64,000 bases of DNA from an uncultured Eubacteriaceae bacterium (GTDB taxonomy: Bacteria; Bacillota; Clostridia; Peptostreptococcales; Anaerovoracaceae). This document shows positions 23,083 through 64,000 of the stretch, one piece after another. The DNA lies in the NCBI GenBank assembly GCA_903789635.1, contig CAIFEY010000002.1, positions 99,587 to 163,586 on the forward strand, written 5' to 3'. The translations under genes were made by a program, and so were the position numbers. A model generated the notes under the pieces. That model did not search any database. It was not told where the DNA came from and worked only from the letters and a program-made list of their open reading frames with translations. Numbering within the stretch: position 1 is the first letter of the stretch; each line of letters starts with the position of its first letter.

Positions 23083-23195
23083 TCCTTATCGAGAGCGGCT
23101 GAGGGAATAGGCCCAGTGAAGCCCGGCAACCTGTTGCGGAATAATCGCGCAAGGTGCCAAATCCTACAGGATAGAACCATCCTGAAAGATGAGGA
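23083..23195 (+). promoter_or_regulatory. SAM-I riboswitch (S-box) aptamer
   Basis: tccTTATCGAGAGcGGCTGAGGGAatagGCCCagTGAAGCCCGGCAACC...aaGGTGCcAAATCCTaCAGgataGAAccATCCTGAAAGATGAGGA; P1 TCCTTATC/GATGAGGA. Confidence 0.96.
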
Positions 23196-61462: not shown

Positions 61463-63004
61463 ATGGAAAAAGAACTGGTTATTGTGCTCGATTTTGGCGG
61501 GCAGTACAATCAGCTGATCGCGAGGCGCGTGCGCGAGTGCAGCGTCTACTGTGAGGTTCACCCGTACACCCTCCCGATCGACAAAATCAAGGAAATGAAC
61601 CCTAAGGGAATCATCCTCACCGGCGGCCCGAACAGCGTCTACGATGAGCATTCCCCGCACTACGATCCGGCCCTGTTCAGCCTCGGTATTCCGATCCTGG
61701 GCATCTGCTACGGCGCGCAGCTGATGGCGTGGTCCCTCGGCGGCAAAGTCGAGACTGCACCGGTCAGCGAGTACGGAAAGACGGAGACGCAGATCGACCG
61801 GAGCGGCCGCCTGTTCGGCAACGTGAGCGAGTCCACGATCACCTGGATGAGCCACACCGACTACATCGCAGAGCCGCCGGAAGGCTTCCGCGTAACCGCA
61901 CACACCGACGTCTGCCCGGTCGCAGCCATGGAGAACGACGAGAAGAAGCTCTACGCCGTTCAGTTCCACCCGGAGGTCACCCACACCGTCGAGGGACAAA
62001 AAATTCTCTCATCATTCGTGTTAGGTCCCTGCGGATGCAGTGCAAGCTGGAAGATGGACGACTTTGTCGACAAAACCATCCTGGAACTCAGAGAAAAGGT
62101 CGGTGCCGGCAAAGCCCTCTGCGCCCTCTCGGGAGGCGTTGACTCTTCCGTAGCCGCCGTCCTGATGTCCAAGGCGATCGGCAAGCAGCTGACCTGCGTA
62201 TTCGTCGACCACGGCCTTCTGCGCAAGGACGAGTCGGAGAGCGTGGAGCGCGTATTCGGACCGGAAGGCCCGTACGACCTGAACTTCATCCGCGTCGACG
62301 CGCACGAGCGCTTCTATAAGAAGCTGAAGGGCGTCACCGAACCGGAGAAGAAGCGCAAGATCATCGGCGAGGAGTTCATCCGCGTGTTCGAGGAAGAGGC
62401 GAAGAAGATCGGCGCCGTCGACTACCTGGTCCAGGGCACGATCTACCCGGACGTCATCGAGAGCGGCCTCGGAAAGTCCGCGACGATCAAGTCCCACCAC
62501 AACGTCGGCGGTCTCCCGGACTACGTCGACTTCAAGGAGATCATCGAGCCGCTGAGAATGCTGTTCAAGGATGAGGTCCGCCGCGCCGGCCTGGAGCTCG
62601 GCATCCCGGAGGATCTCGTCTTCCGTCAGCCGTTCCCTGGCCCAGGCCTCGGTATCCGCATCATCGGCGAGGTCACCCCGGAGAAGGTCAAGATCGTCCA
62701 GGACGCAGACGCCATCTATCGCGAGGAGATCGCCAAAGCCGGCCTCGACCGCCAGATCAACCAGTACTTCGCTGCGCTGACCAACATGCGCTCGGTCGGC
62801 GTCATGGGCGACTTCCGCACGTACGACTACGCCATCGCCCTCCGCGCCGTCGAAACCTCCGACTTCATGACCGCCGAGGCGACCAACCTTCCGTGGGAGG
62901 TCCTCCAGAAGGTCACGAGCAGGATCGTAAACGAGGTCGACCACGTCAACCGCGTGTTCTACGACTGCACGTCTAAGCCGCCGGGGACGATTGAATTTGA
63001 GTAA
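61463..63004 (+). CDS. guaA: GMP synthase (glutamine-hydrolysing)
   Basis: [79 protein letters not shown]. Confidence 0.97.
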
Positions 63005-63510
63005 ACACGTGTGCCCTCAGCTCACTAGTCCTCGCGCTTGACAAGTGTATACACAGAAACACGGGTGCCCGAAGCGCGCTATGGCTTCGCGCTTGACAAG
63101 TGTATACACAGAAACACAGGTGCCATAAGCTCACTAGGTCCTCGCGACTGACAATTCTATGCGCAGAACTCATTGGATTCCGGGAGTTGCACTAAAGAGA
63201 GTGCAACTCCATCGGAATCCTGCGGTCGTTCTGCGCAGAATTGTTACAGTCGCTGTGGAATCGTTCGCTTATGGTACCTGTGTTTTGGTATGTCTTGGAA
63301 GGCGAAGCCGTATGCTGAGGGCACCCGTGTTTTGGTATATCTCGTAAGGCGAAGCAGTGAGCTGATGGAGCCTGTGTTTTTGTATTTTTTGGTTGGCGGG
63401 GGCTAGCGATTGATCGCAACTGGAAGGCGGGGCGAGGCTGTGTGCGAGTGGGAGGCGCCGGGGCGTTATGGCCGCTGGCGCGGGGCAGGGGAGAGGTAGA
63501 ACTCGCTCAG
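63003..63510. repeat. compound inverted-repeat element A (three left units, core hairpin, three 47-nt right units, GC-rich tail)
   Basis: Left units begin AAACACgtGTGCC at 63003, 63057, 63112 (54/55-nt period). Right units begin GGTACC/GGCACC/GGAGCC at 63273, 63320, 63367 (exact 47-nt period) as approximate reverse complements. Confidence 0.82.
63144..63253. repeat. long core hairpin of element A
   Basis: Paired segments: GACTG/CAGTC, AATTCT/AGAATT, GCGCAGAAC/GTTCTGCGC, GGATTCCG/CGGAATCC, GGAGTTGCACT/AGTGCAACTCC with loop AAAGAG. Confidence 0.88.
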
Positions 63511-63514
63511 CGGT

Positions 63515-63765
63515 AAACACGGGCGCCCTCAGCGCGCTAAGTCCTCGCGACAGACAATTCCTTGCTCAGAACTCGTTGGATTTCGTTCTTCGCGGAATTA
63601 TAACTGTCACTGCGGAGTCGCTTGCTTCGGGCACTCGTGTTTTGGATTTTTGTTTGGCGGGGATTCAAGATCGATCGAGGCGATAAAGGAGGTCGGGGGA
63701 TATGAGAGTGAGAAGGCGCGGGGGCGTTATGGCCGCTGGCGCGGGGCTTGTCCGGTGGCGTTTAT
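63515..63765. repeat. compound inverted-repeat element B (shorter paralogous copy of A)
   Basis: AAACACGGGCGCCCTCAGCGCGCTAAGTCCTCGCGACAGACAATTCC...GGAATTATAACTGTCAC...GGGCACTCGTGTTTTGG; shares tail GGGGCGTTATGGCCGCTGGCGCGGGGC with A. Confidence 0.82.
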
Positions 63766-63774
63766 TGTATTTAT

Positions 63775-64000
63775 GGTAGGAACGCGGTCTACGGGTGTCG
63801 ACCGCGTTCCGGGGATTGTCTTTGCCGCCCGGAGGGCGGCAGGGTGGGAGAATGACTCAACCGTGTCGCTGTCGCGACCGGTTTCGCATTCTCCTGGATC
63901 GAGCGGCCGGCCGCTTTTTGCTGGGGTTGCGGGCCGGCCGATGGTAGGAATTGGACGTCGCTGTCGCTTTGGTCCAATTCCCTCGATTGTTTCGGCGCGC
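63775..64000. repeat. array of alternating strong hairpins, truncated by window end
   Basis: GGAACGCGGTC/GACCGCGTTCC (63779-63810); GCCGCCC-GGA-GGGCGGC (63824-63840); GGAGAATG..AACCG.GTCGC-TGTC-GCGAC.CGGTT..CATTCTCC (63847-63894); CGGCCGGCC/GGCCGGCCG (63904-63940); GGAATTGGAC/GTCCAATTCC (63947-63981). Confidence 0.85.

Follow-up and report, generated by a model that had tools for sequence, protein, structure and literature searches.

A composite, non-coding palindromic DNA element that starts in the stop codon of guaA and recurs several dozen times in one bacterial genome

Results

The array at the end of the window

The window, which is the whole stretch of 64,000 nucleotides analysed, corresponds to positions 99587-163586 of contig C2, and its last base is the end of this contig (163586). 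The genome is a draft of 2.64 Mb in 77 contigs with a completeness of 97.9%. The end of the window is one copy of a composite, non-coding palindromic DNA element, one of several dozen that lie dispersed in the intergenic DNA of this Clostridia species (Table 1). It directly follows guaA. The nearest named relative found for GuaA is from Emergencia sp. (82%), which we take to be a genus of the Anaerovoracaceae, and the source of the DNA is presumably a member of this family.

Table 1. Features at the end of the window. Copy numbers refer to the part of the genome that was read base by base.
Feature	Position	Strand	Remarks
guaA (GMP synthase)	61463..63004	+	intact natural C-terminus, compared with relatives; the array begins with the stop TAA (TAA-ACACG)
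nested A-palindrome	63003..63382	.	single 380-nt hairpin; the left arm is present three times (55-nt direct repeats), as is the right arm (47-nt direct repeats)
G-rich spacer GGCGGGG...GATTGATCG...GGCGTTATGGCCGCTGGCGCGGGGC	63386..63499	+	repeat families D6 and D7; repeated at 63647-63747
second A-palindrome	63513..63645	.	shorter; without the central part
G-rich spacer, copy 2	63647..63747	+	
hairpin U1 GGAACGCGGTC/GACCGCGTTCC	63779..63810	+	19 copies
3' flank GATTGT(C), conserved	63813..63819	+	at other loci, unrelated hairpins directly before RATTGTCTTTGCCGC
hairpin U2 GCCGCCC/GGGCGGC	63824..63840	.	GC-only; 24 copies
hairpin U3 GGAGAATG/CATTCTCC	63847..63894	+	inner GTCGC/GCGAC; 18 copies, few with a compensated outer stem
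hairpin U4 GCGGCCGGCC/GGGCCGGCC	63902..63940	.	GC-only; limits approximate; 21 copies
hairpin U5	63942..63990	+	loop GTCGCTGTCGCTTTG; 3' flank TCGATTG; member of a covarying family; 51 copies
hairpin U6, left arm TCGGCGCGCC...	63989..64000	.	truncated where the contig ends; elsewhere in 25 copies, with the AT-rich core coming next

The nested palindrome that begins in the guaA stop codon displays the terminator-like ends AAACACG...CGTGTTT and folds as single-stranded DNA with a z-score of -15.9. It is located upstream of the hairpins described in an earlier note on this DNA and was absent from that note. The three outer stems reported there are present and perfect, with 11 bp in U1 (63779-63789/63800-63810), 8 bp in U3 (63847-63854/63887-63894) and 10 bp in U5 (63947-63956/63972-63981). 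The GC-only hairpins described between them correspond to U2 and U4, and GTCGCTGTCGC does occur twice. The hairpin thought to start at the edge of the window is U6, since copies elsewhere continue with TCGGCGCGCC...GGCGCGCCGA and then with the core. If one mismatch is tolerated, the shared words ATGGTAGGAA and GTCGCTGTCGC do not reach significance by themselves within the window; the sharing of flanks becomes significant only with the genome-wide copies. Compared with 200 shuffled sequences, none of which folded as well, the region 63770-64000 gave a z-score of -7.75 as DNA and of -4.75 as RNA. The sole Rfam match of the window is a SAM (S-box) riboswitch at 23083-23195 (+), with 85.7 bits.

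Copies and architecture in the genome

The last 1.1 kb of the window was used as query against the genome and detected 123 matches on more than 20 contigs; with the sequence found next at other loci as query, there were 76. Base-by-base reading covered about one third of the genome, and the copy totals are therefore lower bounds. In this part, units U1 to U6 are found in the same order as in the window, and the order of the parts is kept at dozens of intergenic loci. The proposal that the three reported hairpins form one class differing only in the stem had to be abandoned: they are three distinct, position-specific units of 18 to 51 copies each. Among them, the stem turns over freely only in U5 (and in a further family, with the loop CTCRGCG), U1 and most copies of U3 keeping the same stem.

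The complete copies on contigs C15, C16 and C47 reveal the anatomy of the element. A stop codon is followed by A-palindromes, often nested, then by G-rich spacers, units U1 to U6, an AT-rich core and further hairpins. The hairpins to the right of the core are in mirrored orientation and include reversed U5 units. The A-palindromes (AAACACGGG...CCCGTGTTT) are represented by 31 full-length copies of a 174-nt unit, whose arms are complementary at 84%. The arrays measure about 1 to 3.8 kb, and the intergenic stretches that hold the element reach 3.8 kb. With genes called by a simple hexamer model, which may have missed some gene ends, the context of the arrays is mostly 3'/3' or tandem and in one case divergent. 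The modules are both tandem and nested, and tandem duplication is evident in the C16 array. A tandem array of a single module was observed on contig C57 (L047:1515-2149), where seven U1-type hairpins are spaced about 101 nt apart. Many A-palindromes and hairpins are present at loci where no core was found.

A coding sequence was considered and rejected: the arrays have no long open frame in common, and the sole short open stretch of the core is broken by single-base differences between copies. On contig C47, a small gene pair recognised by eye as resembling Phd/RelE toxin-antitoxin genes adjoins an array (L034:10210-10810).

Starts in stop codons

At 12 unrelated genes, the array has its exact start within the stop codon, nine times with TAA-ACACGGG or TAA-ACACGTG, once with TGA-ACACGGG and twice with TTAA-CACGGG. 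These genes include guaA and genes that, named from their sequence rather than by family scans, are peptidase T-like, NAD synthase-like, uracil permease-like and LysE-like. Their C-termini look natural. At four further arms, the reading frame continues briefly into the arm. Since stop usage in the same sample is 439 TAA, 275 TAG and 239 TGA, the use of TAA at 11 of the 12 starts is a further bias toward this codon. That arrays begin in stop codons suggests that 3' ends of genes are preferred sites of acquisition; the A-palindrome would then act there as the terminator of the adjoining gene. A target-site duplication of the TNA type (TAA, TGA or TTA before ACACGGG) was rejected because the right ends do not match.

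Variable stems with conserved loops and flanks

The combination of a perfect, variable stem with a conserved loop and flank, noticed earlier in the window, turned out to be a genome-wide rule: the structure is kept while the sequence drifts. Two hairpin families conserve the loop and the flanks (GGT or GGAAG in 5', GATTG in 3') and display stem changes on both sides. GATTG lies within 16 nt in 3' of 17% of the array hairpins on the left side and of 13% on the right side (mirror strand), against a background of about 3%. At the junction RATTGTCTTTGCCGC, different hairpins occupy the same place at different loci.

The alignment of U5 contains 39 distinct copies without gaps. In its 10-bp stem, 95.6% of the cells are paired; seven of the ten pairs show changes on both sides and three never vary. 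Double changes affect 70 cells, versus a mean of 21.1 (sd 5.0) after shuffling, and none of 500 shuffles reached this value. No cell carries a one-sided standard change, i.e. a G-U intermediate. When the partner is slid by one to three columns, pairing drops to 28-61%. The U5 copies are related and the shuffle controls overstate the significance, so that the argument is carried by the slid controls and by the zero count of one-sided changes. The second family (loop CTCRGCG..GCT) comprises 22 hairpins with a stem of at least 6 bp and nine different inner stems, most of them preceded by GGT and followed by GATT; other matches to this loop include four stemless, genic-looking ones.

The AT-rich core

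The core measures about 390-480 nt, and 28 copies align almost without gaps (61 of 10,449 cells) with a mean pairwise identity of 74%. In eight reciprocal nearest pairs, differences amount to 3.1% in the columns that are invariant among the other copies and to 22.6% in the variable columns. This pattern fits purifying selection on individual copies, to which exchange or gene conversion between copies could add, or which these could produce. Such constraint is a hint that the core serves the host or regulation and is not merely copied. In the core the GC content drops to 0.41, and the GC skew is reversed from one side to the other. The U5 units on both sides face the core with their GATT(T) side. 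Near the right end, nearly every copy conserves TTGACA-N17-TTCATAA, which from its sequence could be a promoter. The core was also considered as a structured RNA and rejected: RNAalifold gave only -1.8 kcal/mol with five pairs, and no covarying structure.

Alternatively, the arrays could be functional chromosomal sites, in which the core would be a protein platform with fixed spacing (for the nucleoid, supercoiling or segregation), and the hairpins would be cruciform-forming insulators and bidirectional terminators that shield it from transcription. The nearly gapless alignment, the contrast between the two kinds of columns, the almost complete lack of conserved RNA structure, the reversal of the skew and the U5 units pointing to the core from both sides all argue for such sites. 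However, there is no candidate protein, the copies are not common to relatives although functions of this kind are usually conserved, gene conversion could give the same column pattern, and many A-palindromes and hairpins occur without a core. We consider this explanation rather unlikely.

Pairing at the DNA level

RNA under selection should tolerate G-U pairs on one strand. The pairs of U5, anchored on the loop alone, are 426 Watson-Crick, one G-T, four A-C and 19 other; those of the second family are 148 Watson-Crick, two G-T, four A-C and 14 other. Among 2,485 pairs of the A-palindromes, G-U is found 66 times and A-C 41 times, and wobble types represent 26% of mismatches. For the array hairpins (symmetric scoring, minimum score 9), they represent 32% on the left and 26% on the right, the level expected by chance being 33% (4 of 12 types). 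The control, taken from outside this genome, was the ordinary hairpins of short intergenic regions in two sister species, among which they reach 53%. Because wobble mismatches are not enriched, it appears that pairing is maintained in the DNA itself, or through hairpin-templated repair, and not as RNA. Of the two options left by the earlier note, structured RNA or folded single-stranded DNA, folded DNA is thus the better one, in view of stems without tolerance for wobble, and the RNA reading is unsupported. Covariation by itself is no proof of RNA; the missing wobble pairs argue here for DNA.

A function at the RNA level would take the form of very large 3' UTR terminators, or of a structured non-coding RNA transcribed from the promoter-like sequence of the core. 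Such a function could account for A-palindromes that have their start at stop codons and resemble bidirectional terminators, for the TTGACA-N17-TTCATAA of nearly all core copies and for the good RNA folding energy. Nevertheless, G-U is not in excess over A-C in the stems of U5 and of the A-palindromes, array mismatches are at chance level, the core lacks covarying structure and no curated covariance model of Rfam matches the array or the core. The last result agrees with the statement of the earlier note that the hairpins are assignable to no known family. An RNA function is very unlikely.

Two DNA-level causes remain compatible with the data, namely selection on hairpin extrusion or recognition, and arm-templated repair. 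The latter is documented for inverted repeats, where template switching homogenises the arms and can invert the spacer (PMC8604942, PMC7202029). The conserved loops and flanks argue against templating as the sole cause. This bears on the possibility that the arrays are without function. Palindromes would then arise and become perfect in 3' intergenic DNA through hairpin-templated (quasipalindrome) mutation, slippage and tandem duplication, and drift would account for everything else. The homogenisation of arms fits this possibility, as do nearly perfect Watson-Crick stems in which GT mismatches are about as rare as AC ones, and the tandem duplications of the C16 array and of the C57 units of about 101 nt. 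It agrees poorly with loops, 3' flanks and an order of parts conserved across dozens of loci, with exact starts in stop codons and with a gapless core under strong column-specific constraint, and we regard it as quite unlikely.

Relatives and databases

A DNA search of 60 relatives detected no copy. With a model of the core, 299 other genomes of the family gave nothing except one weak match of 21 bits in G226 (locus L183, contig C67), where the part read contains no array and the match is probably due to chance. The U5 model recovered 100 matches in this genome versus one or two weak ones in relatives, which we read as ordinary GC hairpins. No sequence relative was found among phages (core as query) or plasmids (whole element as query), and no match in IMG/VR (three patterns) or in the named GTDB contigs (one hairpin pattern).

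Samples of two sister species revealed dispersed families of their own. That of G004 is represented by about 30 matches, with an element of up to about 550 nt and GGTGCGAAA/TTTCGCACC hairpins; its loci include L251:6274-7087, L247:17227-17987 and L252:18050-18912, and several of the matches have nearly equal lengths over about 470 nt. The family of G008, partly common to G002, consists of TGCCACATTT/AAATGTGGCA hairpins about 200 nt apart that flank a variable AT-rich core (L223:15876-16880 and L232:3501-4497 in G008; L274 and L276 in G002). At some loci common to both, G002 seems reduced to a single hairpin, whereas G008 carries a pair that encloses the core; the sequences compared suggest recombination between hairpins. 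These families resemble the element of the window in architecture; the sequences are unrelated. In the one sister-species insertion examined (L300), the boundaries do not coincide with hairpins. Neither a target-site duplication nor a precise empty site was found for the element.

Discussion

Comparison with known repeats

REPs are 20-40 bp long, are tagged with GTAG or CGTC and are mostly located downstream of coding regions; CGTC REPs have been reported without a dedicated transposase (PMC3733652). Like REPs and BIMEs, the arrays are species-specific, high-copy intergenic palindromes, mostly located downstream of genes and between convergent or tandem genes and often mosaic, and some U5 copies have the GTAG motif at the 5' foot of the hairpin. 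GTAG is present in U1 and U5 of the window; it is not general in U5, with 10 of 45 copies against 22 of 45 for GAAG. In contrast to REPs, U5 measures about 45 nt within a larger array, units here reach 174-380 nt, and the arrays combine stem variation within a family, a constrained AT-rich core and an exact start in stop codons. The RAYT/Y1_Tnp transposase (PF01797) is absent from the genome, control genomes being positive. The element thus resembles REP/BIME in place, number and species specificity and differs from REPs in three defining features (size, tag and RAYT).

To our knowledge, stem turnover is not part of the description of the BOX elements of Streptococcus pneumoniae. BOX elements are modular intergenic repeats of ordered parts with stem-loop potential (PMC3049150), as here. 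The present element is far larger and contains many distinct hairpins, and a relation in sequence would not be expected. The RUP, Correia and ERIC repeats (MITE-type, mobilised by insertion sequences) are non-coding, palindromic, dispersed and presumed non-autonomous. Our element shares these traits; unlike them, it is a chain of hairpins and not one body with terminal repeats. Inverted ACACGG/CCGTGT ends exist in it; neither a duplication nor a clean empty site was found, and no parent insertion sequence was recognised.

The attC sites of integrons, cited as a precedent in the earlier note, are recognised as a folded single strand with variable sequence and are located at stop codons. The arrays could accordingly be imagined as attC sites of a chromosomal integron, or as a gene-cassette system without integrase, and in outline the likeness holds: the palindromes are species-specific, begin at stop codons and have freely varying stems. 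No integron integrase was found above the cut-off, however. Tyrosine recombinases appear below threshold only (TIGR02249, where the best one scored 58 bits, the cut-off being 265, and skipped profile positions 190-243), and the RYYYAAC...GTTRRRY ends are found in none of 45 U5 copies and in none of 34 A-palindrome left ends. Moreover, the loci are dispersed singly beside housekeeping genes and do not form one cassette array. Membership among attC sites is not supported, and this origin is extremely improbable.

A proposed non-autonomous, mobile element

We tentatively favour a species-specific composite extragenic palindromic element that would work like non-autonomous DNA of the REP/BIME type and be mobile, while granting that this may well prove wrong. 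The hairpins would act in the form of DNA, either extruded or as single strands at replication. A putative enzyme would read the flank, the loop and the hairpin shape rather than the sequence of the stem. Copies and modules could then spread and be shuffled in the manner of REPs and BIMEs. Recombination between the short repeated flanks may add or remove modules, and hairpin-templated repair may keep the arms identical. This reading is favoured by the dozens of dispersed copies with hardly a counterpart in relatives, by stems that change on both sides without a wobble excess, by the different hairpins at one conserved junction, by the tandem and nested modules, by the starts in stop codons, by the mostly 3'/3' or tandem gene context and by the separate families of sister lineages. 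Against it, no mobilising enzyme (Y1_Tnp, RVT_1, or an integron integrase above the cut-off) was found in the draft assembly, neither a target-site duplication nor a precise empty site was found, the boundaries at L300 miss the hairpins, and the constraint on the core points to a role other than copying.

A bolder reading, which we judge unlikely, is that of a new class of mobile or self-copying DNA whose identity would reside in shape, loop and flank. It would enter at stop codons and be copied by a hairpin-reading enzyme, each species of the genus having its own, rapidly diverging version. If the reading favoured above is right, a small bacterial genome may consist to several per cent of DNA that conserves hairpin pairing with a free stem sequence, and the arrays would offer a clean natural test of how cells read single-stranded DNA or cruciform structure. 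Testable predictions follow from the contrast of a core under constraint with stems that turn over freely and with starts placed exactly at stop codons, and the separate families of sister species permit comparative evolution experiments.

A neighbouring recombinase or reverse transcriptase had been proposed as a check. The recombinases are the sub-threshold ones mentioned above; the reverse transcriptase RVT_1 is absent from the assembly, and the group II intron domain V (RF00029) gave only matches with E 0.1-0.6, located outside the arrays. Group IIC introns target hairpins. At the end of contig C15 (L032:9276-9323), a group II intron-like 5' end (group-II-D1D4-4, 25 nt, E 0.61) is located directly after a U5-type hairpin.
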